A stretch of 44,560 bases of DNA from Bacteroidaceae bacterium. Lineage in GTDB: Bacteria > Bacteroidota > Bacteroidia > Bacteroidales > Bacteroidaceae. The DNA is taken from positions 1 through 44,560 of the forward strand of contig JAFYQK010000018.1 of NCBI GenBank assembly GCA_017547165.1, written 5' to 3'. The stretch's first letter is position 1, and each line of letters opens with the position of its first letter. Shown here piece after piece: positions 2,259 through 19,347 of the stretch. Made by a program: the position numbers and the translations under genes. Below the pieces are notes generated by a model that saw only the letters and a program-made list of their open reading frames with translations, searched no databases and had not been told where the DNA came from.

Positions 2259-2387
2259 AAATTCTCTAATCTTCTGTGTCTCCGTGTTTCTGTGTGCCAT
2301 TGTCGTTAAATATTAAACTTTAAACCTTAAACGATCAACGTTTTTCCCTGGCACATTGTATTTAAACGTTCAACGTTATTATTTCCC
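2259..2387. repeat. Degenerate direct repeats, right copies
   Basis: Bases 2259-2279 (AAATTCTCTAATCTTCTGTGT) match 274-293 with small differences. Bases 2297-2310 (CCATTGTCGTTAAA) match 365-378 exactly, with decaying similarity on to CAACGTTT. A third, shorter TTTAAACGTTCAACGTT follows at about 2360. The copies bracket the ATPase/nuclease cassette in the same orientation. Confidence 0.6.
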
Positions 2388-2954: not shown

Positions 2955-4080
2955 ACACAAAATCTGGTTTCTCTCCACCATTGAGGAGCCATTCGTAAAG
3001 TTGCTTCATCATAGAGGCAACGTGTAGTTGCTCGTACTTGCGTTCTATTAACGTACGACCTCGGGACCCCATCTGTATGATTTCCTCATTAGATAGAGAG
3101 ACTATCTCTGTTATTATCTCTGCAATAGTTTCGGGATTATTGTCTCGCCACCATCCACATGCGTCATTATTAAGTTCCTGCCATGGAGTTCCAAGGCTTG
3201 CATACACGGGTGTACCGCATATCAAGGCCTCGGGTACTATCATGCCAAAGTTCTCCTGCTCACTGGGAACCATCAAGGCATGCAGTTTGCCAAGGCGGTC
3301 GTACTTTTCCTTGCCGTTTACAAACCCTACGAAGTGTACCACCTCCTTTAAGGACAAACGCTCCACTTCATTACGCAGAAACTGCTCGTACTCTTCACTT
3401 CCTTTTCCCATTATCTCTATAGTAAATGGATGGCAACCTTTGCTTATGGCAATAGCTGCCCCACGAAGCAGGTTCTCCACTTTCTTTATGGGATGAAGTC
3501 GCCCTAAGAAGCCTATTGACTTCTGTGCAGGTTTCTCTTTGCAGAGTTCTACACCTTCAGGAAACACCACTGGATTGGGAATAACGGCTATGGGACCTTT
3601 GTAACCGAATGCACGACAATGTTCCATTTCCTCCTTGCAGGTAGCATGCAAACAAGAAGCAGAGTGAATATCCTTGTTGAACCACAGTTTCAGCATCGGC
3701 CACTTTTTCCAACGCTTTATCTTCAATGCCGTAGGGTATAGCATTCCATGCGGAGAGATAATGTAAGGCCTGCCTTTCTGCCTTGCCGCCTTGGCTGTTA
3801 TATGGCACTGATACATCCACAAAGCATTAGCATGATAGATGTCATAATCGCTCTCGTTCAGAAAAGATTTCAGGTTCTGGCTTATTGCAAGAGGAGTCCT
3901 ATAGTCATTAGTCAGTTCTATCAACCAAGGTCGCCCAGCGCCTAAATTGTCCTCGGATTTGACCGTAACCAATTCTGCACCTGCATGCAATTCCCACAGC
4001 CCTTCCATTAGGTCTCTTGTGCAAGTACTTGGTCCACCCGATGAGGCAGATAGACCTTGTATAGTGTGAAGTATTTTCAT
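2947..4080 (-). CDS. Family 4 glycosyltransferase
   Basis: A 377-aa GT-B fold glycosyltransferase, GT4-like. The N-terminus MKILHTIQGLSASSGGPSTC carries the glycine-rich loop of the acceptor domain. The C-terminal domain has the FLGRLHPIKKVE segment and the ExxFGxxxxE signature (ENFGMIVPE), where the glutamates contact the nucleotide-sugar. It would be a cytoplasmic, membrane-associated enzyme adding one sugar to the lipid-linked repeat unit; the sugar cannot be read from sequence. The start is the only ATG fitting the family N-terminus; the gap to the upstream glycosyltransferase gene is 6 nt. Confidence 0.9.
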   Translation of the reverse strand: MKILHTIQGLSASSGGPSTCTRDLMEGLWELHAGAELVTVKSEDNLGAGRPWLIELTNDYRTPLAISQNLKSFLNESDYDIYHANALWMYQCHITAKAARQKGRPYIISPHGMLYPTALKIKRWKKWPMLKLWFNKDIHSASCLHATCKEEMEHCRAFGYKGPIAVIPNPVVFPEGVELCKEKPAQKSIGFLGRLHPIKKVENLLRGAAIAISKGCHPFTIEIMGKGSEEYEQFLRNEVERLSLKEVVHFVGFVNGKEKYDRLGKLHALMVPSEQENFGMIVPEALICGTPVYASLGTPWQELNNDACGWWRDNNPETIAEIITEIVSLSNEEIIQMGSRGRTLIERKYEQLHVASMMKQLYEWLLNGGEKPDFVYE

Positions 4081-4086
4081 AGTATA

Positions 4087-5232
4087 TTATGCCTTACTGC
4101 AAGGTCCATTTAAGATAGAACACTCACGATTATTCTGCAAGTCATTAATCAAGGTTAGCAATGCTTCTGCTGCTTTCTTGGGACTCCACATAGTCACCAT
4201 TGTGTTCCTTGCTTCCTTTTGCATCCTGTACATATCTGCGGGATTATCAAGCAGGCGTTTAACACAATCTGTTAGAGAATCTGCATCCTCTGACTTGAAC
4301 GAAAAACCATTCCTCCCCTCAATTATTAAATAAGGTGTACTGCCTATGGCATCACTTGCCACCAAGACACATCCATTTGCCATAGCCTCGTTAGCCACAG
4401 CCCCCCAGCCTTCATAACGGTCGGAGGTAAACAGGAAAATCTCATGCCTTCGCATGGCCTCCAGTATTTCTTCATTAGGCAATGCTCCATGAAACTTCAC
4501 TACGTCTTCAACGCCCAATGCCTTTGCAAGTTGTTTGGTTGTTTCTTCCTCCTCGCCAGAACCATACATGTCAAGCATGAAATTGTAGCCCTGCTCTTTC
4601 AGTTTAAGAGCCATTCTTACGGGAAGCTCTGGGTGTTTCAACCTCAAAAATCTACTACACCACATGATATGTGTAGTAATTTCTGAGGTGGAAACACCCA
4701 GATTTGGTGCTTCAACCACGAAATCCTCATCCACCCTTGTAAAATATCCCCATTTGAAATGCCGGTTCTTGTATGCAAACATCTTACGCTCATCCTCTGC
4801 CGCAAAAGCACTGGAGCAAAGTTTATAGAATAGTTTGTTGCGGTAAAATCTCTGATAGTTCCACCACCATTCTCGCAACCTTGGAGAAAGGATGTTTACC
4901 CACCCACGTTTCAGCCACCGTTCTCCTACCTCAAAAGACAATCCGCAATTCTTTTGCTTGGCACGCTCAACGGCATACTCCTGTGAACATGCCCCAAAGA
5001 CACAAGTGTCAGATTCACGTGCCAACCTCATAGCCTCATCTTGCGCTTCTGCACTTTCTCCTGCCAATATGCAATAACGACGGGAACTATAATCTGCACC
5101 ACCTTTCAGTTCCTTCTCATCCCGTGGCAGAGTTGCTATAAAACGGAAGTCCTCGCCCAGCAATCTGTACAACTCGTCGGCAATGAGAACCTGATGGTGA
5201 TTAAGTAAGTTACTGTAGAATGTTAATGTCAT
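4087..5232 (-). CDS. Family 4 glycosyltransferase
   Basis: A 381-aa GT4-type glycosyltransferase. The N-terminus (LTFYSNLLNHHQVLIADEL) is of the type found in several capsule GT4s. The C-terminal half contains LDMYGSGEEEE and an E-x7-E motif (EGWGAVANE) for donor binding. It overlaps the 3' end of the polymerase gene by 23 nt, which suggests tight coupling. Donor and linkage are unknown. GC content by eye is higher here than in the polymerase gene just upstream, fitting mosaic assembly of the locus. Confidence 0.88.
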   Translation of the reverse strand: MTLTFYSNLLNHHQVLIADELYRLLGEDFRFIATLPRDEKELKGGADYSSRRYCILAGESAEAQDEAMRLARESDTCVFGACSQEYAVERAKQKNCGLSFEVGERWLKRGWVNILSPRLREWWWNYQRFYRNKLFYKLCSSAFAAEDERKMFAYKNRHFKWGYFTRVDEDFVVEAPNLGVSTSEITTHIMWCSRFLRLKHPELPVRMALKLKEQGYNFMLDMYGSGEEEETTKQLAKALGVEDVVKFHGALPNEEILEAMRRHEIFLFTSDRYEGWGAVANEAMANGCVLVASDAIGSTPYLIIEGRNGFSFKSEDADSLTDCVKRLLDNPADMYRMQKEARNTMVTMWSPKKAAEALLTLINDLQNNRECSILNGPCSKA

Positions 5233-6445
5233 TTTTTACTTCAATTTCGTAACAACATGATATTATTAACCAAGCAAAAAAGCATAGTACTGAGCCTCCG
5301 GCAAAGATATACCCTTCCACTAACATATGAATAGACAAGAAAACTATCAGTCCTAAATATAACGATGCTTCTATGTTCGTTCTTCTTTTACTCCATACTC
5401 TTTTAACGGATTTGTATATTATTATCCCAAAGGGAATAAATCCTAAAATACCAGTCATTGATAATACAGCAAGCCAAGAACTGCCGGTTTCAATTGTTCC
5501 TGTAGAAGGCATATAGTCATCTACATGCTTTGGGTCACATGCACAGAAACCAACTCCCCAAATTGGACTATCGGAGAATTCGTCTAATCTATTATCCCAT
5601 TTTGATTCTCTAGAGCTAAATGTACTACCTCTATCTACGTTTCCCTGCTGTTTTGCTTCTAATCCAGAAAGAGCCCCTGACCATAATGGAAAAGTAATAC
5701 TACAGATTATTCCAATTAAGAATATTCTTTTAAAGAAGTTTCTTTTATTTCCTGCATTGATGTAAAGCATGGTTATTACACCTAAAACTGCACACAGAAA
5801 TGCTGATCTGGAACTAGAAAATAGTGTGCAAGCAAAAGATGGAATACATAATAACCAATATAGTTTATTCTTAGTTGATAAAGCGCGATAAGAACAATAA
5901 ATAGTGGAAACAGCAGAAACAGGGCCTAATAACATAGAATGTGATGTTAATCCACCAAAACTTCCCGCATTCCCGATATATTCATTAGAATCTAAATTAG
6001 TCATGTAATTAATTCCTAAGAAATAAAAAGCAAAGGAAACTACAGAAACAATAATTGATACAAATAATGAAAACTGCAAAAGATTTCTTTTGAAAATTAC
6101 AACATAGTTGTCCTTAATTAGTGGAGATATGGATATAAATAATATAAGAAATAGACCAAACCTGAACCAAGATTTAAACATAGGATCTGGTGATGATAAA
6201 ATTATTGATATAGCACCTGCAAAAAGGAGGAAAATACAGGTATTGTCAAACTTTTTTGAATGAGTTAGCATCCATATGCATATACCAATCATTAAAAGAC
6301 GATATAGCATTGTAAAGGAAGGAAGAAAACCTATCAATGGTGAAAGAGCAAGACAACCAAATATAAATGCAAGTTTATTCTGCTTAATGTCCAATAATGC
6401 TATCTCTTCAAACAATATAGACTTGACATCCTTGATAATATTCAT
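5210..6445 (-). CDS. O-antigen polymerase/ligase-like membrane protein (Wzy/WaaL-like)
   Basis: A 411-aa, very hydrophobic protein with about ten predicted membrane segments and a long extracytoplasmic loop (about residues 255-310) of polar sequence including RGSTFSSRESKWDNRLDEF. That arrangement, plus the R-x-x-x-W loop motif, is typical of the Wzy_C/O-antigen ligase superfamily. It would polymerise or transfer lipid-linked oligosaccharide units in the periplasm. It lies between glycosyltransferase genes; its start overlaps the upstream stop by 4 nt. As the only such gene in the locus, polymerase (Wzy) is more likely than ligase. Confidence 0.8.
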   Translation of the reverse strand: MNIIKDVKSILFEEIALLDIKQNKLAFIFGCLALSPLIGFLPSFTMLYRLLMIGICIWMLTHSKKFDNTCIFLLFAGAISIILSSPDPMFKSWFRFGLFLILFISISPLIKDNYVVIFKRNLLQFSLFVSIIVSVVSFAFYFLGINYMTNLDSNEYIGNAGSFGGLTSHSMLLGPVSAVSTIYCSYRALSTKNKLYWLLCIPSFACTLFSSSRSAFLCAVLGVITMLYINAGNKRNFFKRIFLIGIICSITFPLWSGALSGLEAKQQGNVDRGSTFSSRESKWDNRLDEFSDSPIWGVGFCACDPKHVDDYMPSTGTIETGSSWLAVLSMTGILGFIPFGIIIYKSVKRVWSKRRTNIEASLYLGLIVFLSIHMLVEGYIFAGGSVLCFFAWLIISCCYEIEVKNDINILQ

Positions 6446-7638
6446 ATATTTTTTAAATACTTTAAAAAATCAGCAATGAGAATATTTATATCATAAGGTT
6501 TGCAGAGGTGATGTTTGTTCCTATTAGTGTGATATGACTCTATAATCTCTGCCAATTTTACATAATCTCCAGGTTTTATCAACCATTTATCGCGTTCCGT
6601 TGGTTCAATACATTCAGCTGCACCGTTGTAATAACATCCTATAAAGGGAACTCCACAGGCTGCCGCTTCGGTATAAACACATCCAAATCCCTCAAACGAA
6701 CTTGGCATAGCATATAAATTCAAAGTATTGTAATAATCTACCAAACATTCGTGTGATACTTCCTTGGGCCATTCTACATACTCTGTTAAGTCATTCTGCT
6801 GGACGAATTCCTCACATTCTTTTCGTGTAGGTCCAGTACCCAATAAAGACAAACGCATATTATGATAGCCTTTTTTAATCAATATGTCAAAGGCTCTCAA
6901 TAATACCATATGGCCTTTCAATTCAACAAAATTTGCAATACATCCAATTCTAAATGTATCGGTTTGTTTCTTTTCATCATTAGGCCTGAAGATACTTACA
7001 TCAACACCGTTGTTCAGTATATATATATTATTATTAGAATCTAATGGTCGAATGCCTTTGATAGTTTTCAGCACAGAAAGGTATTTATGGTCTATTTCTT
7101 CCTTTCTTGCTTTGGGAAATGCCAACAGATTATCTCTGCAAGGTTCACTGATACACACATGCAAATCGACCTGTCGGAGCAGTTTCATAGCACTCCTTGC
7201 TCTGTAATTAGAATTTATATAACAATTGGACAGAATACCGTTCCTAATTGTAAAGGGATCTAAATCGTGATACTGTACCAATACCTTTATATCGGTGTTA
7301 TATCTTTTTAGAGCCAATCCATATGCAGAAAAGTGAGCAGTATGGCAATGAACAAATGTTATATTATTCAGTTCAATTCCTAATTCTTTTACCCTTGCAA
7401 TAAATTGTTTTGCATTATAGGAATCATAAAGTCCTTCAAAAAGAAACGAACGAGTAGATTTTACTCTAAATCCATAAACAGATACTCCATCTATAACATA
7501 GTCTTCGTTGCCAGGTTTCAAAACAATAATCTTATAATTAGAATTTCGTTGTATAGCCTTAACCTGATCATAGACATAGGCTCCACGCCACGAATCAGTA
7601 GAGGGGAAAAATGGAGTTATGCAGATGTAGAAGTCCAT
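6442..7638 (-). CDS. Family 4 glycosyltransferase
   Basis: A 398-aa GT4 enzyme. The N-terminal acceptor domain starts MDFYICITPFFPSTDSWRGAY; the donor domain contains GCIANFVELKGH, a GTGP turn and the E-x7-E signature EGFGCVYTE. It presumably adds a hexose-type sugar to the repeat unit at the inner membrane. Codons are AT-rich, as in the neighbouring polymerase and GT2 genes. It overlaps the polymerase gene by 4 nt (ATGA). Confidence 0.9.
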   Translation of the reverse strand: MDFYICITPFFPSTDSWRGAYVYDQVKAIQRNSNYKIIVLKPGNEDYVIDGVSVYGFRVKSTRSFLFEGLYDSYNAKQFIARVKELGIELNNITFVHCHTAHFSAYGLALKRYNTDIKVLVQYHDLDPFTIRNGILSNCYINSNYRARSAMKLLRQVDLHVCISEPCRDNLLAFPKARKEEIDHKYLSVLKTIKGIRPLDSNNNIYILNNGVDVSIFRPNDEKKQTDTFRIGCIANFVELKGHMVLLRAFDILIKKGYHNMRLSLLGTGPTRKECEEFVQQNDLTEYVEWPKEVSHECLVDYYNTLNLYAMPSSFEGFGCVYTEAAACGVPFIGCYYNGAAECIEPTERDKWLIKPGDYVKLAEIIESYHTNRNKHHLCKPYDINILIADFLKYLKNI

Positions 7639-7681
7639 TTTTGTTTTAATTAGATTATGAAAATATTATGGAGAGTGTAAG

Positions 7682-8506
7682 TTATAGCCCCAAAAACAGT
7701 CTCAAAAACGTTTTGATTAACACAAAAGGGTAACGAAGTGGGAAAAATGTCCGTTGAAAATACAACTGTTGTCTAAGTTCCTGACCCTTAGGAGAATTTA
7801 AATGATTCCACCTTTCTTTAATAGTCATTCGTCTTAATTCCTCTGCAGATTTTGCTTTGTGGTCTGCTTCACAATAAGCACAATAATGTGGTGTTCCTAT
7901 CAGTTCAAAACCAGCCTTCTTTGCTCTCCAACAATAGTCGTTATCAGCAATCCCATGTCGATATATTTCTGGAAAAATTCCGATTGCTTTAACTATTTGT
8001 GATGGTATAAACCAAACATTTGCACCAATAAAATCAATAAATTGCGGTTGGCCATTTGGAAGTACTTTATAACCTTTGAAAGTAAAGGTATTTGTACATT
8101 TAACGCCAACATATGTAGGTTCTTTTGTCGTTGAATCACAAGTGTTACCACAAATAATCGCTGGTTTATTATAAAAATTCAAACATTCGTAGAAATCTGG
8201 GATAAGATACTCGTTTACAAATGTATCGTCATTGAGTAGCATATAATAATCATAACCACCTTTGTCAATGGCTCCGCGCCAGGCTAATCTCATGCCACCA
8301 GCCCAAAACAAATTTTCACCTTTATATATAAATGCTTTAGGGAAATCTTGTAATACTGCATTTGCAGTCCCATCCGTACACCCATCGTCTGTCAGGTGTA
8401 TATCGTATTCTATTGAATGTTTTATAAATTCTTGATTTAACAGATTCAAGCATTTTATCGTGTATGCTTTTCTATTGAAACATGTGATAATAACAGCTAT
8501 TTTCAT
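7682..8506 (-). CDS. Family 2 glycosyltransferase
   Basis: A 274-aa GT-A fold enzyme. The start MKIAVIITCFNRKAYTIKCL, the nucleotide-binding DDGCTDGT (near residue 40) and LNDDTF (the DxD-type metal site, near 90) mark a GT2 transferase of the rhamnosyltransferase-like subgroup. It would use a nucleotide-activated sugar in the cytoplasm. The 60-nt gap to the upstream gene is AT-rich and shows nothing distinct. Confidence 0.88.
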   Translation of the reverse strand: MKIAVIITCFNRKAYTIKCLNLLNQEFIKHSIEYDIHLTDDGCTDGTANAVLQDFPKAFIYKGENLFWAGGMRLAWRGAIDKGGYDYYMLLNDDTFVNEYLIPDFYECLNFYNKPAIICGNTCDSTTKEPTYVGVKCTNTFTFKGYKVLPNGQPQFIDFIGANVWFIPSQIVKAIGIFPEIYRHGIADNDYCWRAKKAGFELIGTPHYCAYCEADHKAKSAEELRRMTIKERWNHLNSPKGQELRQQLYFQRTFFPLRYPFVLIKTFLRLFLGL

Positions 8507-8566
8507 TATTTGGATTAGATTATTTTTATGTAATATTGCAATTAGATGCTATAATAGAAGATGTAT

Positions 8567-9508
8567 TCAAAGCCTTATTTTATTATACTTATTGCTTATA
8601 TTCATGGCTAGTTGGGGAGACAATATATATATAAGAATAATGATTTTATTTTTTATGGAAATAGAATTAGATAATATTATTGATTTTATATTTGATAGTG
8701 CTTTAATTCTAATTTCAGCAGTATATAATGAATTAATATCTCTAAATGATTCGCAACAAGCATTTTTAATAAAAAATGATATTACATTTATTCTCTCTTG
8801 CTTATCTTTATAAATCTCATTTTCGTATAGAAAAGTATCTATGTCAAAACAAGTCATGTTTTTATACGATATTGGTTTGTGAGTTGCACTATCTAAACGC
8901 ATTCTATAGTTGTAGAAGCGCTTTCCTGTAATAACTACAGATTTTACAATGTTTAGCAAACAAGCCATTATGGCAAAATCTTCCCACATTACAATATTTG
9001 AAGGAAATCTAATCTCTTTAAAAAGACTGACTTTAAACATACATAGGCACAATGAAGCCCCTATTAACTTCTGTTTATAGAAATTATTCCTAGCTTGCTC
9101 TTGATTTAAGCAAATTGGTGTTGTAATATTTGTATTTTTATTAGAAATACAGCCATCAGAAATGGCAATATCTACTTTATATTCATTGATTAAATGCAGA
9201 AAATGTTCAAACATATCCTTTTCAATTGTGTCATCTGAATCTACAAAGCATATATAGTCTCCAGTCACAATATCCAATGCAGTATTTCTTGCTATACTTA
9301 CACCCTCGTTGGATTTATGTATGACCTTAAATCTTTTGTCTCGCGTTGAATATAAATCACAAATATCACCTGATTTATCAGTACTTCCATCGTTAACAAG
9401 TATAACCTCAAAATTATCATATGTCTGTGATACAATACTATTAAAACATTCATTTAAGTATGATTCTGTATTATATACAGGAACTATAACACTAATTTTA
9501 GGATTCAT
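8567..9508 (-). CDS. Family 2 glycosyltransferase
   Basis: A 313-aa GT2 protein. It begins ISVIVPVYNTESYLNEC, has VNDGSTDKSG (nucleotide site) and FVDSDD (DxD metal site), then KMWEDF-like acceptor residues (VMWEDFAI). The C-terminal 60 residues are lysine- and isoleucine-rich and may contact the membrane. The ATG overlaps the upstream pyruvyl-transferase stop by one base (TAATG). It is among the most AT-rich genes of the locus, which suggests acquisition by transfer. Confidence 0.9.
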   Translation of the reverse strand: MNPKISVIVPVYNTESYLNECFNSIVSQTYDNFEVILVNDGSTDKSGDICDLYSTRDKRFKVIHKSNEGVSIARNTALDIVTGDYICFVDSDDTIEKDMFEHFLHLINEYKVDIAISDGCISNKNTNITTPICLNQEQARNNFYKQKLIGASLCLCMFKVSLFKEIRFPSNIVMWEDFAIMACLLNIVKSVVITGKRFYNYRMRLDSATHKPISYKNMTCFDIDTFLYENEIYKDKQERINVISFFIKNACCESFRDINSLYTAEIRIKALSNIKSIILSNSISIKNKIIILIYILSPQLAMNISNKYNKIRL

Positions 9509-10581
9509 TATATTAATGCATTAATTAAAAAATTCAAACTCTCGGTTCTCTGTCTCTCCAGTTGTGCGTCAACGTATTGCCAATCAATCAAAGTATCTTT
9601 AAACTCTTTAAATTGTTTATCATCTACCAAACGATAATCTAATCCTAAAGGTGACAATAAAGATTTGAAACGTGTTCCTCCTCTTTCTGCGTTTACGATG
9701 GAATAGAAATTACGATGGAAAAGTATGGAAAAAACGGTACCATGGAAGGAGTCTGTAACAACCATTGAAGCATTCGCTATCATTGATAACCATTCTTCAA
9801 CAGACAATGTGGCATTCTTATCCGCACTTTTGATTATAACATTTAGTCCTTTATTTTTGGCCATGCTCTCTATGTATGCTTGCTTCTCTGGTGTGATGTT
9901 CAGAATATAGGCAAACAGATAGTCCTGTTCCTCTGTATTCTCATTTAGCAAAGGTTTATATGCCTCTGCTTCTGCTAAAATAGTGGGGTCCAGTACATGC
10001 TGGGCATTCACCCCAAGGTAAGTTCTGCAGAGTTCCACACCTGTTGCCTCTCTAACACTTATAGCATCAAGACGTTTTGCCAGCTTGGCGCATCGCTTTG
10101 TCAGTTCGGCATTGTATTCCCATGTGTCTACACCAAATGAAGCTGCGTATGCAATCTTTTTGATGCCATCAGGAACGAACTTAAGGAACATGTCTTCTAT
10201 ATAACTATTATAAATAGGTCGCCAGACTTGGTCGCTTCCTGTAATAACAGCATCGAAGTGCTCTTCACTTACAATCTTCTTGTTGTAGGAATGTACTATC
10301 CTTGTCCTGTCTATATGATTATTCACGAAATCTGCCATAATGGGATTCCTAAATGTAGGTATGGCAACATAAGGTCTGATTTGGGGACGCCTGCGCTTCA
10401 ATATTGCAATAAGCAACTGCTTGCAAATTGAAAGCAGATACCTTGTAAACGAAGTTCGTCCTACAAAATCTATTGTCTTTACTTCATGCCCAAGACGCTT
10501 GAGTACCTGTTGCAAGGCATAATTCTGCAACAGACCTCCGTAATTGTTATATAGCGGTTGGGTAACTATTCCTATTTTCAT
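9508..10581 (-). CDS. Polysaccharide pyruvyl transferase family protein
   Basis: About 357 aa, PF04230-type. Family hallmarks are IGIVTQPLYNNYGGLLQNYA at the N-terminus, ITGSDQVW near residue 110 and TDSFHGTVFSILF in the C-terminal half. It likely adds a pyruvate ketal from phosphoenolpyruvate to a capsule sugar, introducing negative charge. The ATG at 10581 was chosen over an in-frame TTG at 10608 because it gives the family N-terminus directly. It pairs functionally with the FrhB-like/acyltransferase gene upstream, a frequent combination in Bacteroidales capsule loci. Confidence 0.88.
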   Translation of the reverse strand: MKIGIVTQPLYNNYGGLLQNYALQQVLKRLGHEVKTIDFVGRTSFTRYLLSICKQLLIAILKRRRPQIRPYVAIPTFRNPIMADFVNNHIDRTRIVHSYNKKIVSEEHFDAVITGSDQVWRPIYNSYIEDMFLKFVPDGIKKIAYAASFGVDTWEYNAELTKRCAKLAKRLDAISVREATGVELCRTYLGVNAQHVLDPTILAEAEAYKPLLNENTEEQDYLFAYILNITPEKQAYIESMAKNKGLNVIIKSADKNATLSVEEWLSMIANASMVVTDSFHGTVFSILFHRNFYSIVNAERGGTRFKSLLSPLGLDYRLVDDKQFKEFKDTLIDWQYVDAQLERQRTESLNFLINALI

Positions 10582-10604
10582 ATTAAATTCTATTGTTTCT
10601 AACT

Positions 10605-12161
10605 TCAATTAGAGTCTTGATTACGCAAAGTTCTGTTCTTCACAATCCTTATATTATTAACAATCTGGTGCTTCATGTTTTGGCTTAATCCAATAAACCA
10701 AACACTTAAAAAAGTAGATATTAAACAAACAAAAAGTATTGTAATTAAGGAAATAAATTCCTTGCTTCCAAATAGAAGTTTTTTATTTGCATATATGACT
10801 ATAGGTAATAAGGAAGAGGCAAAAGTTACTTTAAAGCATAATAAAATAACTCTAAAAATTTCATTCCATTTATAGCCTGCATATTTTACTATCAAAAATG
10901 GTTTTATAAACATTCCTAAAACTACATATAAAGTCAATAAAATCCACGCCATTACAACAGGAGAATACCCAAATTTGAACATTACATATGTTAATGGAAA
11001 TGTCAAGATGCCTAGAATAGGACTAATCAGTGCATTCTCTTTTATACGTCCTATTGCATATAATGCTGTATAAAAAGAAGTATCAAAAACTTGAAACAAG
11101 CTAGATATTATTGCTAATTGCAAAAATATGACCGTATATTCGGGTACTTCTCTTAACCACATTTTTAAAAGGGGGTCTGCTAACAAACAAATAGGCAAAC
11201 ATAATGCCAACATCATATAATATGAATATTTTGTTGAACTTAGTAACAATGATTTACTACCCTGAATGTCACCAGAAGCTAATCTTTTTACAATTTGAGG
11301 ATTTGCGGCAGTCCTAAAATTTTGTACAAACTGATTTGCGGCCATGTTCACTTGATTGGCTAATGCACGTGCAGTTACAACAGCCGGAGAAAAAAACATA
11401 TTCAATACAATAATCAATCCTTGATTTTTCAAAGGCACAGAAATGCTACTGATCAAATTCCAAACAGAATAACTAGAAACTTCTTTGACTATCGATTTTT
11501 CTATAATAAATCTAAAATGCGTTTCTTCAAATCTCCTGACACAATAATGACGATAATATAATGCAGTTGCTATCTGAAGAATACATAAGAGGAGAGCATA
11601 CAACTTCAGCTTATCCCAATCAAAATAAGTTAACGAGTATACAATCAAAAGTTTTGTAAGCGTTTCAAATATACTTAAATAAGCATATACTCCCATCTTC
11701 TCATGACTAATAATAGACGCATTGTATGGAACTTGCGTAATTGTTACTACTGAGGTAATGACAGACAAATGATAAGTAAACAACGCGGCTTCCATTCTAC
11801 CATCAGGAATTACTAACTCGTTCTTGACAAACCATACCCCCAGCGTTTCTGCTAATATTACAATTAATACAGCAATAATAATGTGCAATGATAATAATGT
11901 CGAGAATGTCTTTTTAAGTTTTAAATAGTTACCGGTTCCTAACTCATATGTAAGAAAACGTGATGTACCATTACTTAAGGCTCCATTAACGAACGAAAGC
12001 ATAGCAACAATTCCTCCAACCGCTTGGTATGTACCAAAATCATCTACGCCTAACACCTCCAATATGATGCGAGAAGTATACAATGATACTAACATTGTAA
12101 ACATCATTCGGAAATATAAAAACAATGTATTTTTAGCTATTGTTTTATTGTTTGTCTGCAT
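10605..12161 (-). CDS. Polysaccharide flippase (Wzx-like, MATE/PST fold)
   Basis: A 518-aa integral membrane protein with roughly 12-14 hydrophobic segments, beginning NTLFLYFRMMFTMLVSLYTS and followed by the conserved LGVDDFGTYQAVGGIVAML. This is the usual start of Bacteroidetes lipopolysaccharide flippases. It would move the undecaprenyl-linked repeat unit across the inner membrane for the Wzy-like polymerase downstream. It is preceded by a 226-nt non-coding gap and ends 23 nt before the pyruvyl transferase ATG. Confidence 0.9.
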   Translation of the reverse strand: MQTNNKTIAKNTLFLYFRMMFTMLVSLYTSRIILEVLGVDDFGTYQAVGGIVAMLSFVNGALSNGTSRFLTYELGTGNYLKLKKTFSTLLSLHIIIAVLIVILAETLGVWFVKNELVIPDGRMEAALFTYHLSVITSVVTITQVPYNASIISHEKMGVYAYLSIFETLTKLLIVYSLTYFDWDKLKLYALLLCILQIATALYYRHYCVRRFEETHFRFIIEKSIVKEVSSYSVWNLISSISVPLKNQGLIIVLNMFFSPAVVTARALANQVNMAANQFVQNFRTAANPQIVKRLASGDIQGSKSLLLSSTKYSYYMMLALCLPICLLADPLLKMWLREVPEYTVIFLQLAIISSLFQVFDTSFYTALYAIGRIKENALISPILGILTFPLTYVMFKFGYSPVVMAWILLTLYVVLGMFIKPFLIVKYAGYKWNEIFRVILLCFKVTFASSLLPIVIYANKKLLFGSKEFISLITILFVCLISTFLSVWFIGLSQNMKHQIVNNIRIVKNRTLRNQDSN

Positions 12162-12387
12162 AAAATACTATAGAATAATATCTAAATTATTAAAGTAGAA
12201 CTTAGGAATTGTTTAACTTAACAATTTAATTACAACTAAATTTAAACAAAGAAAAAACTGAGGATGTATTTTCTTTGATACAGATAATTATTCCTCATTT
12301 CAAAATGCATATAAATGATGTCATGGATATATAATTAAACATATACAATCATTTGAATAATCTAAATATTAAATCTCGAAGACCTAT

Positions 12388-13281
12388 TCATAATATTGTA
12401 AAATCACAGTTATCTGGGTCATAACGTAATCGTGAATTGATATTTAATGAATCAATTCTTTGCATATCCTCGTTTAATATTTCAAAATCGAAAATATTCA
12501 TATTTTCTTTTTGACGCATAGCATTTAACGATCGGAAAACCGGAATAACTCCATTTTGTATATGCCAGCGAAGAATCAATTGGCTTATAGTCTTCCCATA
12601 TTTTAAAGAAAGTTTTTTCATTAGTGGAAGACGTATTAATCTTTCATCCAATCGAGCTAGAGGCGTATATGCTTCACATATTATACCCTTTTGACGTGAG
12701 TATTCAATCAATGTTTTTTGATTAAAAAGGGGATGAATTTCTATTTGATTTATTGATGGTGTTTCTCCGGTTTCGAATAACAGCAAATCAATGTGATGTT
12801 GATGACAATTGGAAACGCCTAAACATTTACATACACCTTCATTCCGCAGTTCAATCATTTGTTTCCAAGTCTCAACGAATTTACCAGTAACAGGCCAATG
12901 AAACATAAGTAAATCTATATAATCCGTCCCGAATCTCTCAATGCTACGATAAACTGCGTCCTTTATGTTTCCATCGTATTGAGTTCTGTTTGTTACACGA
13001 GTCGTTAGTATAAACTTATGTCTTTCTATAGATGATTCCTTTATGGCCTTACCTATCAAATCTTCTCGACCGTATGCTGCAGAATAATCAATAAAACGAT
13101 ATCCCGTATCTATTGCGTCACATATTGCATTATAGTAAAAGAATTCTTGTTTTTTATACTTTATTTTATTTTTAATTTTTCCTAAAAGAGATGTTTGGTA
13201 TTTGAAACCGCGTGTCAACATTCCTGGTCCAAAACATAAACTGGGTACTTGTTGACCATTATTTAGAGAAAAGTAAATCAT
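12388..13281 (-). CDS. Aldo/keto reductase family protein
   Basis: About 297 aa, (beta/alpha)8-barrel aldo/keto reductase. D and Y of the catalytic tetrad are in FIDYSAAYG and the histidine is in LLMFHWP. At the expected catalytic lysine the sequence reads LTTRVTN, so lysine appears replaced by arginine. It could reduce a sugar intermediate or aldehyde with NADPH, but the altered residue makes classical activity uncertain. ATG at 13281 was chosen over an upstream TTG; it lies 13 nt after the upstream stop. Its place in the capsule operon suggests a role in making an unusual sugar. Confidence 0.8.
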   Translation of the reverse strand: MIYFSLNNGQQVPSLCFGPGMLTRGFKYQTSLLGKIKNKIKYKKQEFFYYNAICDAIDTGYRFIDYSAAYGREDLIGKAIKESSIERHKFILTTRVTNRTQYDGNIKDAVYRSIERFGTDYIDLLMFHWPVTGKFVETWKQMIELRNEGVCKCLGVSNCHQHHIDLLLFETGETPSINQIEIHPLFNQKTLIEYSRQKGIICEAYTPLARLDERLIRLPLMKKLSLKYGKTISQLILRWHIQNGVIPVFRSLNAMRQKENMNIFDFEILNEDMQRIDSLNINSRLRYDPDNCDFTIL

Positions 13282-13294
13282 ATATATATCATTA

Positions 13295-15127
13295 TTAATA
13301 CCATTCAATATTTTTCTTGATTACTTTGGCCGGAACACCTGCGACCAAACTGCGTGGAGGCACACTCTTGGTAACGACAGCATTGGTTGCAACGACTGAA
13401 CCTTCACCAATAGTAACGCCTGGCATTATAGTACAACCGGAACAAAGCCATACATGATCTTCAATGTGTACCGGGGCATGATTGACATAGCTGTCATTTA
13501 CTATTACATGAGCACCATTATAATCACGGATAGACACATTACGACCGATACGTACTCCATTGCCAATGGTAATTTCTTTGGCACACATTATCGATAAGTT
13601 TACATTTGAAGCACCTTGGCCTATTGTAAGTGTACCGCCATTGACTATTTCTATATATGCACCATAACATAGATTATATGGACCTACTCCGTATCTGGTC
13701 AACGGACCATTGTGTGTTCTAAAGGTTGTATTGGCAGTCATTCGCAGACATGTGGGAAGTTTCATCCCCCTGACGGGATTGTTGCCGAATACTATCGGCA
13801 TTCCCAAATCAATCTTCGCCGAAGGATGTACATCAAATACAGCACTAGGCATGGTGTAGATTACATTACCTTCCTTGAAAGAAGATTTTGTATTGGTACG
13901 AGTATTGAGTCTTATTAATTTATAATATGAACTTATTGAAAACCTGAATTTAGAAAACAGGAAGTAATAAGGTTTTATGATTTTAATGATTCTTTGCTTA
14001 ATACTCTGTTTATATGCATTATAAGGAAAATATTTTTCTGTAACCTCTTCGAATGTCCCCTTATCTAAATCTATAAAGAATTGTTCCCTATCAATCTTAC
14101 CTGGTGAAAGAGGAGAAACCAAGGCAGGATTCCCTGGAAGTATAGATTGGAACGAAGTCTCACGATATTCCAACTTGTCTTTTACCAATTCAAAAAAGTC
14201 TTCGCCCTTCTTAGAATTCAGAAGAATCATTGATGTACCGATATTATTATCCAAATTGGAATCTACCTTCTCAATGCCCCAATAATCGGCTATTGTAATA
14301 TCTGACATTCTTGGGAAACCTTTGTACTGACACGTGTAACAAGAGGGACGGCAATACACATTGGTATGGTAACCACGACGGAAGTCATCTTCCATGCTCA
14401 CGCCATAATATACGGCCCCATTATCGAATACAACCTTACGGGTCAGATTACGCCAACCCAATTCCTTGTTCTTGGCCTTTACATAAACGACTTTGCCTCC
14501 ATGCTTGCGCTCCAAGGAGTCAAGATACTTACGATATACTTTGGGAGAGTTCACTCCTCGGCAAATAAAATCTACTATAATCAGGTTCTCATAGTCCTTG
14601 CGAAGAAAAGAACGCAGTGCTGCCATCTGACAAGGTGTACCACAAGCAAGCACCCTCTCTCCATTGCGCAATAATGTACGAATCTCTGTATATAATCCTT
14701 CTGCCTTGCTCTGAAGATACTTGGAACTCCTTAACTTTACCAAATCCTTGGGATTGTTTGAGATATAATTACGTACAGAAAAATTATCATTATATATAGC
14801 ACCGCTAACATAGCCTCCCTGTTCATACATTGCATCTGCCAATGCCGAGAAGGCACCACCTGAAGTGCTGTCCCAGCGCACATCCATTCGTTTGTGTATA
14901 GCGGCAATAGTCTTGGCGGGGGTGTGATAGTCATTCTTTTTTAACTGATCAATATTCAGTTCAGGACATATCTTTACACAAAGTCCACACTCTATACATT
15001 GATTTGCATTAACCTCTGGATACCAAAAACCCTCGATATCTGTTTTTAATGTAATTGCTTTATGTGAACAAACATCTACACATGCACAGCAACCACAACA
15101 CTTTGACTTATCGGTTATATTTATCAT
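13295..15127 (-). CDS. Fusion: FrhB-like Fe-S domain plus hexapeptide acyltransferase
   Basis: A 610-aa two-part protein. Residues about 1-60 hold two 4Fe-4S clusters (CCGCCACVDVC and CIECGLCVKIC). Residues about 60-390 match the F420 hydrogenase/dehydrogenase beta-subunit family (GTPCQMAALRSFL, CRGVNSPKVY, SDITIADYWG). After a linker, residues about 430-610 form a left-handed beta-helix acyltransferase (IGNGVRIGRNVSI, VTIGEGSVVATNAVV, VAGVPAKVIKK). FrhB-like proteins are common in Bacteroidales capsule loci next to pyruvyl transferases but are normally separate. The reading frame is continuous, so this is a true fusion, probably for acylation of the glycan coupled to a redox step of unknown nature. 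Confidence 0.85.
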   Translation of the reverse strand: MINITDKSKCCGCCACVDVCSHKAITLKTDIEGFWYPEVNANQCIECGLCVKICPELNIDQLKKNDYHTPAKTIAAIHKRMDVRWDSTSGGAFSALADAMYEQGGYVSGAIYNDNFSVRNYISNNPKDLVKLRSSKYLQSKAEGLYTEIRTLLRNGERVLACGTPCQMAALRSFLRKDYENLIIVDFICRGVNSPKVYRKYLDSLERKHGGKVVYVKAKNKELGWRNLTRKVVFDNGAVYYGVSMEDDFRRGYHTNVYCRPSCYTCQYKGFPRMSDITIADYWGIEKVDSNLDNNIGTSMILLNSKKGEDFFELVKDKLEYRETSFQSILPGNPALVSPLSPGKIDREQFFIDLDKGTFEEVTEKYFPYNAYKQSIKQRIIKIIKPYYFLFSKFRFSISSYYKLIRLNTRTNTKSSFKEGNVIYTMPSAVFDVHPSAKIDLGMPIVFGNNPVRGMKLPTCLRMTANTTFRTHNGPLTRYGVGPYNLCYGAYIEIVNGGTLTIGQGASNVNLSIMCAKEITIGNGVRIGRNVSIRDYNGAHVIVNDSYVNHAPVHIEDHVWLCSGCTIMPGVTIGEGSVVATNAVVTKSVPPRSLVAGVPAKVIKKNIEWY

Positions 15128-15141
15128 ACTATATCATTTTT

Positions 15142-15172
15142 GTAAACGTCCTATTTTAAATACCACCTTTTA
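15142..15172 (-). repeat. Leader repeat, copy 1 (before the FrhB-like fusion)
   Basis: GTAAACGTCC-ATTTTA-TACCACC-TTA is shared with 16419-16450 (about 25 of 31 positions, same orientation). Each copy lies 14-28 nt upstream of the ATG of a leftward gene. The copies bracket the frameshifted acyltransferase. Confidence 0.65.
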
Positions 15173-15352
15173 AAGATGCCTTTGAGCACCTTTAAAGAGT
15201 AGTACGATAATTTGGTTGATTAATTTTTAAGTTTTTTCATTTTGCAAATGCCAATAGTTGCAGGCATTAGTTTGCATAATTAAGATGTTGGCTTTCTATT
15301 CTCTTATTATTTGCTGATTGAACGTCCATTTTACTTTAAAGGATTGCTATCA
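15173..15352. other. Non-coding gap in the capsule locus
   Basis: AT-rich sequence between the fusion gene and the 3' end of the broken acyltransferase. A third, short GAACGTCCATTTTA near 15324 resembles the leader repeats on either side. No promoter or terminator was recognised. Confidence 0.45.
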
Positions 15353-16391
15353 TTATTGAAATTTTATCCCGAATAAATATTTTGCTAATATAGGACTTGT
15401 ACGTATAATGCTACTTATTACCAAGCACACACCTACAATAATTATAGAAAGTGAACCTCCAATAGCAATTTCCAATACAGAATTATTACCAATAGATAGC
15501 ATTTCTCTGATCTGCGGTAATTTTGGTAACAAGAAATAATGTATAAGATAAATATCAAGAGTTCTTTTTCCAATGTATTGAAGTACCTTGCCAAATATTC
15601 TATCATAAGAAAAAGAATGTTGGTAAAATCTGAACGAATTATATACAATAAGCAGTCCAAGGAACCCTATAGTTAGACTAGTAATAAGGTCAAGAGATCT
15701 GTATAAAATACCATTACTTATATTTGGGAAGATGTAATGACGGTTTACATAAAACAACAGAACATACAAGACAATAATTGCAAGAGAGAAATGTTTGTGA
15801 GATATAATCCTATTAAATATTGATTTATACATAGAACAAATATATCCAAATGCAATATATGGAAAATAACGAAATGTATTATGAAGACTTAATATGTTTC
15901 CGACTTCATCAAGAACAGGTGAAGACCTTAAGAGAAATTTTGCAGCAATCATTATAGAAAGTTTTGCCATTGGAGTTGTAAACCAATAAATTTAGAGTGT
16001 TAATGATGATAAACATCTCCCACAACACGATAGTAAACCAATACCCCAACTTAAGATTGTGACTAGCAAAAGTATAAATATTAGAATTGAGATGTATGTA
16101 TGTATAAATCACTCCCCAAATAAGGGTTGGAATTAACATCGTGCTGAATTTGTTTTTAAACATTTTCAACCATGTGTTTAGATTCCATTCTATGTTTGGT
16201 TTATATCCAATAAACCCACTGATAAAGAAGAACAATGGCATAAAAAATGAAACTATCAAATCTCCTAGTGGAGATGGGGATGGAAAACCAAAGGAGAATA
16301 GTTCTACGTGAGAGAACACAACTAATATCATTGTAAAACCACGTAGTGCATCGATGTATTCAATTCTTGGGGGGGTGATGAGTTGAGACAT
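15353..16391 (-). pseudogene. Membrane acyltransferase (Acyltransferase_3 type), frameshifted
   Basis: Two overlapping frames make one family member. The first (ATG at 16391) has IEYIDALRGFTMILVVFSHV, the N-terminal signature of OafA-like acyltransferases with the catalytic-site histidine of the first membrane segment. The second, from about 15970 to 15353, carries the remaining membrane helices, including RTLDIYLIHYFLLP. They are joined by a one-base shift somewhere in 15909-15990, where the N-terminal frame runs into a stop. Together they give about 345 aa, normal for the family. It would O-acylate the glycan. The lesion could be a genuine inactivation, a phase-variable indel or an assembly error; no homopolymer longer than four is evident at the junction. 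Confidence 0.75.
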
Positions 16392-16418
16392 ATTTATATG
16401 GTAAAAAGTAGAATAAAA

Positions 16419-16450
16419 GTAAACGTCCAATTTTAGTATACCACCCTTAG
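16419..16450 (-). repeat. Leader repeat, copy 2 (before the acyltransferase)
   Basis: Partner of 15142-15172. It lies in the UpxY-acyltransferase gap, 28 nt before the ATG at 16391. The adjoining TTAGCGAACGGAAAGG also resembles TTAGCGAACAGAAATG at about 19760. Confidence 0.65.
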
Positions 16451-16508: not shown

Positions 16509-17246
16509 TTAATCGTTTCCTATTGGGGTGAGGAAGGCGGTGGGGATATAGGCGGTTGCTATGGTGATGAGGCCGGGGATGATGACGGCAACTCGTTGTT
16601 GACCTTGATAGCGGGCGACACGACCTGTGATGCCGGCGAAGCGGCCTTGCGTAATGAGGACTTCCTGACCTTTATGGAAATGGGTGTCGTTCTGGGGTAC
16701 TATGGCTATGTTACCATCGTCGATGGCGCAGAGTATGCGGAGACTTTCCATCTGGCGGTCAGGGACAATGAGTGGCCTACTGACCAGAGTGCCATTGAAG
16801 CGCTCGGGGGCGTAATAGAAGCGGAGGTATGGAAGGTTATGGTTGTCATAGACGAACTGTTCTATTTCTTGCTGGGTGCCGTAGGCAAAGAGGATGTTGG
16901 GGATGCGTGACATCTGTTGGGCCACGCGTTTGCCGTCGACTTCCTTGTACTCGGTGATGGTGGGGAGATAGGCTGTGCCTCCGTGGGTGGTGATGTAATC
17001 GTAGGCTTGGCGTTCGCGTGAGTAGGTGGTGCGGAGGGCAAACCAGTTTTTAACGGTGAGAGGTGAACGGTAAGGGGTGAGCGGAGTAGTTGGGGAAAGG
17101 GTGTTTTGGGTGGACACCCCTGTTTTTGAACTTGGCTTGGCGATGGTGTCGCGAGCTTCGGTTTCGGGGAGGGCATCAGAGGTAAGTCTGGTGCAGGAAA
17201 GGTTACTGGCCGTTCCGGGTATGACTACATCTGTTGGTACAGACAT
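16509..17246 (-). CDS. upxY: UpxY-family NusG-like antiterminator
   Basis: About 245 aa. The NusG N-terminal domain starts at WFALRTTYSRERQAYDY and the C-terminal KOW domain at KGQEVLITQGRFAGITGRV. UpxY proteins bind RNA polymerase and prevent early termination of the long capsule operon they head, acting on their own locus. An extra stretch of about 65 residues precedes the NusG domain; its end (TLSPTTPLTPYRSPLTV) is encoded by an ACGGTGAGAGG-type low-complexity repeat, unlike normal UpxY proteins, which begin within a few residues of the NusG domain. ATG at 17246 was preferred to a TTG at 17270. Confidence 0.88.
   Translation of the reverse strand: MSVPTDVVIPGTASNLSCTRLTSDALPETEARDTIAKPSSKTGVSTQNTLSPTTPLTPYRSPLTVKNWFALRTTYSRERQAYDYITTHGGTAYLPTITEYKEVDGKRVAQQMSRIPNILFAYGTQQEIEQFVYDNHNLPYLRFYYAPERFNGTLVSRPLIVPDRQMESLRILCAIDDGNIAIVPQNDTHFHKGQEVLITQGRFAGITGRVARYQGQQRVAVIIPGLITIATAYIPTAFLTPIGND
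17055..17098 (-). repeat. ACGGTGAG-type low-complexity repeat inside upxY
   Basis: Contains ACGGTGAGAGGTGAACGG and GGGGTGAGCGGAGT on the plus strand, the same words as the tandem array at 19375-19490. It is translated in frame in the UpxY N-terminal extension. Confidence 0.7.
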
Positions 17247-17387
17247 TTTGTATAATCCTATGCTGTCCAAGACTGAACTGCTGGATGGAAAATACGTTGT
17301 TGTTTTGCGTGCAGAAGACTCGTTCTGCTATGCAAAAAGGGGAATATTATCTATTTACTTTTGTCTTTCGACTGTTGTATAATCACT

Positions 17388-17759
17388 CTATTGTTCTGTT
17401 AACTCTTTATACCAGGCATTGAAGGACTGGGAGTTTAGTGATTTGGTTGGCAATTGAAGGAAATGATGCTGCTTTGTCTGCTTGGAAAACATCTTAACAT
17501 CGTTGTTTGAGATGGTGTTGAAGATGAGTGGGAAGGGACGGTCCTTGAGGCGTATTACAACGGTGGAATTGACATTGTCGGAAATCTGCTCGAGCTGATA
17601 TGCGGATTTCTCGAATGCAACCCAATATTCTCCAATGTTGTAGAGATTGATATTATTGGTGTTATCGTTCTCTTTGGAGAGAATATCAGAGAGGTCTTGT
17701 GCGATGAGTGTCTCAATTCGCATAAGATTCTGCATTCTTGGTGTTGATGCGTTATTCAT
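17388..17759 (-). CDS. Hypothetical protein, first gene of the capsule operon
   Basis: A 123-aa, mostly soluble protein with no family I recognise. It is polar and asparagine-rich in the first half, with IGEYWVAFEKSAYQLEQI and a beta-strand-like TVVIRLKDRPFPLIF in the middle. It is the first gene downstream of the invertible promoter and precedes upxY by about 140 nt. In Bacteroides loci upxY is accompanied by upxZ, an inhibitor of other UpxY proteins; this protein occupies a similar regulatory place, but I see no convincing sequence match to UpxZ. Function unknown. Confidence 0.65.
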   Translation of the reverse strand: MNNASTPRMQNLMRIETLIAQDLSDILSKENDNTNNINLYNIGEYWVAFEKSAYQLEQISDNVNSTVVIRLKDRPFPLIFNTISNNDVKMFSKQTKQHHFLQLPTKSLNSQSFNAWYKELTEQ

Positions 17760-17862
17760 GCCTAACAGTATCGTTTCTTACAAGTTTCTTTATCTTGTCA
17801 CCTGAGCATTTTTTAGAAGAAATTACTCGTTTCAGGGGTATATAAACTCATAAAAGGGTAAG

Positions 17863-17903
17863 TACCCTGCGTCAATCTTCTTGTAGAAGAGTAATGCAGG
17901 GTA
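17863..17903 (-). promoter_or_regulatory. Extended hairpin built across the left inverted repeat
   Basis: TACCCTGC (17863-17870) pairs with GCAGGGTA (17896-17903), and between them TCTTCT pairs with AGAAGA. One outer arm lies outside and the other inside the predicted invertible segment, so the full hairpin exists only in the orientation seen here. It could stop read-through from the recombinase gene into the capsule operon. Confidence 0.6.
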
Positions 17904-18097
17904 GTTAGTTATTGATTCTCTTGTTGTTATGTTCGATAAAACCAAGTCTTTTTAATCAACAAGGCAGAAAAAGGCTTATAGATAATTCGGAAGAGTACAG
18001 TAAAAAAAGTATTTTTGTAAAAAATGTATACAAAATATTAATGCTTATGGATAATTATTGCTATATTTGCGTGGACAGTCACTCTTCTACAAGAAGA
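17876..18097. repeat. Inverted repeats bounding an invertible promoter segment
   Basis: TCTTCTTGTAGAAGAGT at 17876-17892 is repeated inverted at 18081-18097, enclosing 188 bp (17893-18080). Each arm is itself a dyad around a 3-nt centre (TCTTCT-TGT-AGAAGA), as expected for a tyrosine-recombinase crossover site. The segment holds the promoter at 18062-18069, and the recombinase gene lies directly beside it. Confidence 0.8.
18062..18069 (+). promoter_or_regulatory. Invertible promoter, -7 element, facing away from the capsule operon
   Basis: TATATTTG fits TAnnTTTG exactly and reads rightward, into the 3' end of the recombinase gene in antisense. No clear TTTG is present at the -33 distance. 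After inversion it would lie about 11 bp inside the left repeat and read leftward into 17759 and the capsule genes. No leftward TAnnTTTG was found in the segment as it stands. Confidence 0.65.
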
Positions 18098-18141
18098 GCG
18101 ATATTACACGTCAACAAAAACATCAAAAACAGGTGTTTGTG

Positions 18142-19347
18142 TTACAACAGGTTTAATATTTCCCTGTTTGCTTTATCAATTACCTCTGACTTTATAGAGG
18201 CCAAATAAATTTGAGTGGTTTTCTCTGAGTTGTGGCCCATTCCTTCGCTGATTACAGCCAAAGGTACTCCTTTTTCGCGTGCTATGCTTGCCCAGGAATG
18301 CCTTGCGCAATACATGGTAAGAGCAGAAGAAAATCCTAACTCACGACCGATAACTTTCAGGTGCCTGTTTATTTTAGTGGCAGAGTTAAGATATTGCTTG
18401 CGATGGTTGGCGATGTCGTGTTTCACTATATTAAAGACGTATGGGGATGACTGAGGGGACTGATACTTGCTGATGATATCAAGCATACGATCTTCGAGGT
18501 GTATTTCCAAAAGTTGGTTAGTCTTCTTACGTCTGTAAAAGAGTGTCTCACCCTTGATATTATTCTTTCTTAAAAAGGCTATATCAACAAAAGACATGCC
18601 TCGGGTATAGAAGCTGAAAAGAAAAATGTCGCGGGCAAATTGCTTTGGGGGGTCGTTACTGAGGTCTAACTCCTTTATTCGTTTGATGTTGGGGAGCGAC
18701 AATGCTCGTTTGGGGGTTGGGGCAATAGAGGTTAAGACGTGTTTAAACGGGCGATGGTCGGCAATGACTCCTTCTTCAACCACTTTGTTATATGCCGAGC
18801 GCAAATGCTTCATATAGAAGGATATGGTGTTGGGTGCAAGATGTTTCTGGTGGAGATAATTTTCATAGTCAAGCAAGAGGTCAGATTCCATGTCTTTTAT
18901 CAATAAGTCGACATTGCCTCTAAACTGTCGGAAACTGCTCAACGTAGAAAGATATGTCTCGGCTGTCCTGACCTTGCCTTGCCTTGTATATTGGCTGGCA
19001 ATGGTTTCCATAAGGACAAACAGGGTTGGTTCGGCTTTGACTTTTTTAAATTCTGCGATTAGATTATCGGCATCGATATCTGACTTATGGGAGAGAAGGT
19101 TGTGCTCAATAGCGCGCAGTCTTTTAATGTCGGTGGCGGTCTCGTTTATAACGGATTCCAAGTACTGAAACCTGTATGAATTTTGAGAGATAAAAATTGT
19201 GTCTTTCTCAAAGTCCCACTCGTATGAGTATATCTTGTATGATGTGGATACTCTTCTGACAAGTCTGTTGCAAATGACCTGATAATACAAACTGCCTTCT
19301 TTGCCGTCTATGATTGAGGGCCTGAATTTTAACTTTACGGAAATCAT
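18142..19347 (-). CDS. Tyrosine site-specific recombinase (promoter invertase candidate)
   Basis: A 401-aa member of the Bacteroidetes phage-integrase/Tsr-like recombinases. An Arm-type N-terminal domain (VKLKFRPSIIDGKEGSLYYQV) is followed by a SAM-like core-binding domain (residues about 105-205) and the catalytic domain with arginine in FYTRGMSF, the ARHSWA box, GHNSEKTTQ and the tyrosine in IYLAS. Such genes beside upxY loci invert the capsule promoter in Bacteroides thetaiotaomicron-type systems. It lies next to the inverted repeats at 17876-18097 and another pair at 19597-19686. A mobile-element integrase is the alternative, but no element genes or att sites are visible. Confidence 0.85.
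   Translation of the reverse strand: MISVKLKFRPSIIDGKEGSLYYQVICNRLVRRVSTSYKIYSYEWDFEKDTIFISQNSYRFQYLESVINETATDIKRLRAIEHNLLSHKSDIDADNLIAEFKKVKAEPTLFVLMETIASQYTRQGKVRTAETYLSTLSSFRQFRGNVDLLIKDMESDLLLDYENYLHQKHLAPNTISFYMKHLRSAYNKVVEEGVIADHRPFKHVLTSIAPTPKRALSLPNIKRIKELDLSNDPPKQFARDIFLFSFYTRGMSFVDIAFLRKNNIKGETLFYRRKKTNQLLEIHLEDRMLDIISKYQSPQSSPYVFNIVKHDIANHRKQYLNSATKINRHLKVIGRELGFSSALTMYCARHSWASIAREKGVPLAVISEGMGHNSEKTTQIYLASIKSEVIDKANREILNLL

Follow-up and report, generated by a model that had tools for sequence, protein, structure and literature searches.

Palindromic repeats of 17-20 bp around a putative promoter were described at CPS1/3/4/5 of B. xylanisolvens and at the CPS loci of P. distasonis, in an excerpt of PMC12118408 that also placed an integrase/invertase gene upstream and an UpxY (B. 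xylanisolvens) or NusG-type antiterminator (P. distasonis) at the start of the operon; the arms there read GTTAC-GTAAC (GCTAC in P. distasonis) and flanked about 290-345 bp. At the PS locus of Phocaeicola vulgatus CL10, PCR proved the inversion of a promoter located between a recombinase gene and upxY, and the promoter still inverted although the neighbouring recombinase was broken (PMC13114119, in part). Promoters of the Mpi type, served by serine recombinases in B. fragilis and in B. intestinalis PVR, lie on segments that precede capsule operons and measure 183-186 bp in B. intestinalis, with the arms ARACGTTCGTN (B. fragilis, Mpi) or GTTCGTTTAA (B. intestinalis, genome-encoded Mpi homologues) and with the approximate transcription start in the proximal repeat, according to extracts of PMC8375218. 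In hCom2 strains, UpxY genes were enriched near invertons in a regulatable orientation and tyrosine-type invertases in a non-regulatable one (PMC11892184, in part). UpxZ was reported to repress non-adjacent capsule operons (PMC7315117, in part), and the flagellar switch of C. difficile was reported to use orientation-dependent termination, with Rho acting on the OFF leader (PMC7446863, in part).

The locus considered here lies in a window (the whole stretch of DNA that was analysed, 44,560 nucleotides from a Bacteroidaceae bacterium) and, judged from its sequence, is very probably a site-specific DNA inversion switch for a capsule, drawn OFF, on which the adjacent tyrosine recombinase acts. 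It comprises the following features:

2379..16430, minus strand: polysaccharide genes (acyltransferases, FrhB/hexapeptide, aldo/keto reductase, MatE-like (below cut-off), pyruvyl transferase, glycosyltransferases, Wzy_C)
16509..17270, minus strand: upxY, a NusG-like antiterminator of 253 aa from TTG (NF033644, 131.2 bits; cut-off 100)
17388..17759, minus strand: orf123, a small conserved protein of 123 aa, the first gene that the flipped promoter would meet
17863..17903, no strand: extended dyad around the left arm (TACCCTGC at 17863-17870 and GCAGGGTA at 17896-17903)
17876..17892, plus strand: putative left (capsule-side) recombination arm, TCTTCTTGTAGAAGAGT
17893..18080, no strand: 188-bp candidate invertible segment, drawn OFF
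18010..18017, plus strand: second TAnnTTTG match, TATTTTTG, away from the conserved position
18046..18049, plus strand: -33-like TATG, at a place that is T-rich in relatives
18062..18069, plus strand: putative -7 element (TATATTTG), 11 nt inward of the right arm, at a position conserved in relatives
18081..18097, minus strand: putative right (recombinase-side) recombination arm, the exact reverse complement of the left arm
18142..19347, minus strand: tyrosine recombinase of 401 aa (PF00589, 6.5e-12; PF13102, 1.5e-18)

Four hallmarks of a Bacteroidales UpxY capsule switch with a tyrosine recombinase were found: short repeats around an intergenic segment, an adjacent tyrosine recombinase with catalytic-type residues, a Bacteroides-type motif inside the segment, so located that one orientation would drive the operon (by its sequence and its conserved position), and UpxY with polysaccharide genes downstream, UpxY standing second behind orf123. 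The proposal of an earlier sequence-only reading that the locus matches known Bacteroidales capsule switches was borne out by the PF00589/PF13102 and UpxY matches, the polysaccharide genes, the recurrence of the layout at ten loci of the same recombinase clade and the presence of both orientations among relatives. The palindromic repeats, the recombinase gene and UpxY recall the loci in the excerpt of PMC12118408, but arms reading TCTTCT-TGT-AGAAGA around 188 bp placed the window outside the GTTAC-site subgroup described there. Segment size and position upstream of a capsule operon were shared with the Mpi-type promoters (PMC8375218, in part), whereas the arms differed and the adjacent enzyme was a tyrosine recombinase, so that by its arms and its neighbouring enzyme the locus did not fit a serine-invertase (Mpi) switch. 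Unlike the broken neighbour at the P. vulgatus CL10 locus (PMC13114119, in part), the window's recombinase gene was open over its full length. The orientation logic agreed with that of the hCom2 inverton groups (PMC11892184, in part), in that flipping can drive UpxY and not the invertase. The TCTTCT arm, searched for in five forms, occurred in no paper among the main texts of open-licence papers, and for the topics of an antisense or OFF-orientation promoter and of a small UpxY partner there was nothing to the point among the matches listed from such texts.

The 17-bp inverted repeat proposed in the sequence-only reading was confirmed and is perfect, with the arms complementary at 17/17 nt (100%) and 188 nt apart, and the symmetry claimed for each arm proved to be an internal dyad, TCTTCT-TGT-AGAAGA. 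It was the longest inverted repeat of the window at spacers of 100-400 nt (17 bp; runner-up, 13); when the full window was dinucleotide-shuffled 200 times, no such repeat exceeded 15 bp. With up to three mismatches allowed, the arm sequence was found at just these two places in the window. The enclosed segment was AT-rich (GC 0.287 vs 0.399 for the whole window). Across the organism's own genome (84.5% complete), a search for the 15-bp core with at most one mismatch gave the two arms and one single place inside an ORF on contig 16; a reversed control pattern likewise gave three matches, so the contig-16 match was at chance level. No second repeat pair of this core was found in that genome.

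The promoter was read from its motif. A perfect TAnnTTTG match in the segment, as the sequence-only reading had it, was found at 18062-18069; its count of one was not upheld, as a second match, TATTTTTG, lies on the same strand and is probably a chance match in AT-rich DNA. The -33 consensus is TTTG, and the TATG at 18046-18049 was an imperfect version of it. The motif at 18062-18069 points right, away from the capsule operon and toward the 3' end of the recombinase gene (18142); were the segment inverted, the motif would face the ORF that starts at 17759 and, beyond it, upxY, both as previously proposed. The minus strand held no TAnnTTTG in 17000-18160, which agrees with the earlier view of a capsule promoter caught OFF. 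In the window and at 22 other OFF loci, the promoter in its OFF orientation is directed into the recombinase gene from the 3' end, on the antisense strand. Such an antisense promoter could possibly feed the state of the switch back on the recombinase level.

Relatives of the recombinase were taken from 201 genomes of the family (190 with a match, the loci of the best matches only) and from contigs of named genomes (57 loci). A repeat pair matching at 15/17 positions or more was present within 800 nt 3' of the gene at 53 of 90 loci, four of the 90 being copies of the window's own locus; the search for the left arm covered the first 350 nt of this stretch. It was missing within 800 nt at 34 loci, five of them with less than 400 nt of DNA, and three further loci with a 14/17 pair only were left uncounted. 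Removing 17 duplicates or near-copies (including three own-genome copies) and L039, where the best pair was an unrelated long repeat, left 35 of the 53 as a non-redundant set; at L068 a second, shorter pair with the clade motif was picked by hand. TAnnTTTG lay 4-15 nt inside one arm at 31 of these 35 loci, 23 of them OFF and 8 ON as assigned from motif direction in the sequence, and 4% of shuffled segments carried the motif within 25 nt. When the loci were aligned on the motif, an A-rich stretch appeared at -37 to -33 and a T-rich stretch at -24 to -22 (T 0.68, 0.81, 0.90), counted from the TTTG end, in keeping with a promoter.

Both orientations of one segment were recovered at L058 and L059, deposited as Bacteroides ilei and Bacteroides mediterraneensis, where the inner segments were 26% identical as assembled and 91% identical after one was inverted, between flanks that were 100% and 96% identical. 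The recombinases of this pair were 47% identical to the window's and belong to another clade. The comparison of these assemblies shows that segments of the wider recombinase family turn over in nature and does not extend to the window's own segment. A flipped form in other genomes, for which the sequence-only reading had suggested a search, was thus found cleanly in the other clade and not for the window's segment, which was held by its own genome alone among 150 genomes searched; five genomes of the same order gave short matches only, and the other genomes of the same genus among the 150 gave no match.

The product of 18142-19347 is the probable invertase of this segment. Its gene ends 44 nt beyond the right arm and its frame is open over 401 aa. 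In an alignment of 86 recombinases, its own included, R249 was conserved in 82 and K275, R349, H372 and Y381 in all 86; we take these to be the catalytic positions of the family. The same genome contained one further, weaker recombinase match (two matches in total). In a tree of the 86 (L095 was left out as too short), the window's clade comprised 19 members with a support of 0.992. All 11 non-redundant repeat-bearing members, the window included, had UpxY downstream above the NCBI cut-off, against which these calls were rechecked independently, and the order recombinase, repeat, UpxY was found again at the ten others. Of these 11, 9 carried the core TCTTCT-n-AGAAGA, on both arms (the window, L015, L022, L044, L047, L051 and L077) or on a single arm (L063 and L068), and L048 and L064 lacked it; among the 24 other non-redundant repeat-bearing loci 0 had it, while TCTCTT-n-AAGAGA occurred at 15 of the 24 loci outside the clade and 0 of the 11 inside. 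This comparison of arms shows that site sequence follows recombinase clade. Five clade members were OFF (the window, L044, L047, L048, L051) and five ON (L022, L063, L064, L068, L077), L015 being the one without a promoter motif; at two further members, L046 and L074, neither repeat nor UpxY was found in about 4 kb downstream. Bacteroidales capsule switches would thus gain a recombinase clade with its own target site.

A single clade for all UpxY switches was rejected, as L121 and L123 fall in another clade with other sites. At these two loci (L121:1604-4675 and L123:3727-6972, found via orf123), an UpxY-profile match and orf123 accompany an other-clade recombinase, near L043, that is followed by a perfect 17/17 repeat pair, with the core TCTCTT in L121. 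As read from these features, L121 and L123 are switches of the window's kind that rely on another enzyme, and UpxY capsule loci appear to be served by at least two recombinase clades. L043 and L071, also outside the window's clade, gave weak UpxY-profile matches (E about 1e-13), and here, as at L105-L116, the UpxY call has the profile as its sole basis. Many other-clade loci face genes other than UpxY.

The site-specific inversion switch would work as follows. The tyrosine recombinase would bind the dyad-symmetric arms, exchange strands inside them and invert the 188-bp segment. As assembled, the promoter at 18062-18069, if it starts transcription, would fire to the right and run antisense into the recombinase gene from its 3' end; the capsule operon has no promoter of this consensus directed at it, hence the assignment to OFF. 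After inversion, the promoter would sit 11 nt in from the left arm and be directed leftward, with a leader of about 140 nt before orf123, so that orf123, then upxY, then the polysaccharide genes would be transcribed. UpxY would keep RNA polymerase going through the operon, and the capsule would presumably be made in the ON state. Three details are unusual at this locus: its own site sequence, the UpxY partner orf123 with its position before upxY, and the left-junction hairpin, which should come apart on inversion.

Relatives of orf123 were found in 12 of 301 genomes of the family, its own included, at 13 places, in all of which orf123 adjoined an UpxY-profile match; the UpxY and orf123 profiles used for this neighbourhood survey drew in part on loci that they later recovered. 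UpxY came before orf123 at all 12 places outside the window, and orf123 came first in the window. The conserved core read IL..E..N...HLY..G.YWVAFE.SA..L. Like UpxZ (PF06603), orf123 is a small protein coded beside UpxY, but it had no PF06603 match, and no Pfam family matched the window's orf123 at E<=1. PF06603 was likewise absent from the families matched at E<=1 by 15 orf123 members and was not found in the own genome; of 61 genomes sampled, 1 contained the family. An hhalign comparison with one UpxZ sequence gave a probability of 0.1, so neither the PF06603 profile nor this alignment identified orf123 as UpxZ, and an UpxZ-like role is a guess from position. An assignment to MutS domain I was rejected as too weak (2 of 15 members, best E 0.019), a PDB profile search returned four matches, none below E 0.67, and an AlphaFold2 model from 8 rows was unusable (mean pLDDT 41.7). 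If it holds, a conserved UpxY-partner protein distinct from Pfam UpxZ would be a candidate for a role in choosing one capsule at a time.

The left junction folded strongly as drawn: for 17840-17920 (minus strand) the energy was -21.4 kcal/mol (z -4.55), and none of 200 shuffles folded as well. The energy of the left junction was -21.1 in OFF vs -11.7 in the computed ON form, which is the ground on which inversion, in this folding model, should dismantle the hairpin. A role as terminator was rejected, since there is no T run behind the hairpin and a scan of 17200-18400 gave no site of terminator type with a T run. An OFF-only hairpin as a general feature was also rejected: the distal junction, compared between OFF and ON, was lower in OFF at 17 of 30 oriented loci (Wilcoxon p 0.62); for the window's clade, as delimited in that comparison, the figure was 7 of 9. 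In a flank-shuffle test on 34 loci (L059 was left out), p<=0.02, uncorrected for multiple tests, was reached by 9/34 distal-OFF, 3/34 distal-ON, 4/34 proximal-OFF and 2/34 proximal-ON junctions, and the window's right (proximal) junction likewise passed in OFF. Gains in OFF of at least 9 kcal/mol occurred in the window, L044, L015, L069 and L070 (5/34), where 'OFF' means as assembled for L015, L069 and L070 because they lack a perfect promoter motif; L067 showed the reverse. L044 and L015, of the same clade as the window, had strong OFF hairpins that weakened on computed inversion. The distal arms of L015, L044, L069 and L070 form long palindromes across the distal junction as assembled, weaker after computed inversion. 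A rather unlikely extension of the switch would have one inversion do two jobs, moving the promoter and also building (OFF) or dismantling (ON) a capsule-side hairpin that stops read-through from recombinase to capsule, while orf123, as the operon's first product, could by its position do the job of UpxZ in silencing other capsules.

Other explanations were weighed against the switch. A chance repeat pair might be favoured by the low GC content of the segment, but it was refuted by the shuffles (0/200) and by the conservation of the architecture in relatives, and its probability is negligible. The strong fold of the left junction as drawn would also suit dyads that act in RNA, as a terminator or attenuator in the transcripts of the recombinase and capsule genes, and are not sites of crossover. 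We regard this as highly improbable, since a terminator-like site with a T run is missing from the region and an RNA role leaves the identical distant arm, the promoter between the arms and the flip in relatives unexplained.

Two further explanations accept an inversion system and dispute its present working or its enzyme. Only one orientation was seen here, as would be expected of a former switch that is now fixed, with recombinase or site inactive and the promoter locked away from the capsule, and the neighbouring recombinase of the P. vulgatus locus offers a precedent in being broken, though its promoter still inverts (PMC13114119, in part); the open recombinase frame with its catalytic-type residues and the perfect arms make a fixed switch very unlikely. 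That same inverting promoter beside a broken neighbour (PMC13114119, in part), together with the further, weaker recombinase match in the own genome, would be in keeping with a repeat inverted in trans by another recombinase while the neighbour acts elsewhere. Against this stand the fact that the own genome showed no further pair of repeats with this core and the agreement of site with clade (TCTTCT, 9/11 vs 0/24; TCTCTT, 0/11 vs 15/24), and we consider inversion in trans very unlikely.

Some observations concern the capsule genes of this genome. The ninth codon of upxY is ATG. An acyltransferase (PF01757) was seemingly split into overlapping frames at 15353-15970 and 15909-16430 (minus strand), matching its N- and C-terminal parts, the C-terminal one below cut-off; there was no long homopolymer near the overlap, and the split could reflect a decayed gene or an assembly error. 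A second UpxY locus of the own genome (L118:4196-4777, G000 contig 15; 151.6 bits, over the cut-off) lacked, in the 10 kb extracted, both an inverted repeat above 11 bp and a recombinase of this type, and it is apparently not switched in this way.

Among the relatives, a near-identical recombinase with an invertible promoter and the arm TTTCTTAGACAGAGGGA was seen at L017, L021, L024, L052, L054, L056, L057, L058, L059, L060, L061, L076 and L094, in records named Bacteroides, Phocaeicola, Parabacteroides, Coprobacter and Barnesiella, 12 of the 13 being OFF and 1 ON. An ORF of 341-344 aa follows in 12 of the 13 (not L060); that of L017, the one tried, had no Pfam match. Seven members of L058's tight recombinase group (L018, L053, L055, L062, L066, L085 and L093) were without a repeat pair in 800 nt. 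The distribution of the TTTCTTAGACAGAGGGA-arm element suggests that it likely spread horizontally in recent times. At L068 and L030, an extra 23-bp inverted-repeat pair, TATAGGGAGGTTCTATAAATTAG, stands 11-207 nt after the recombinase, before the pair with the clade motif.
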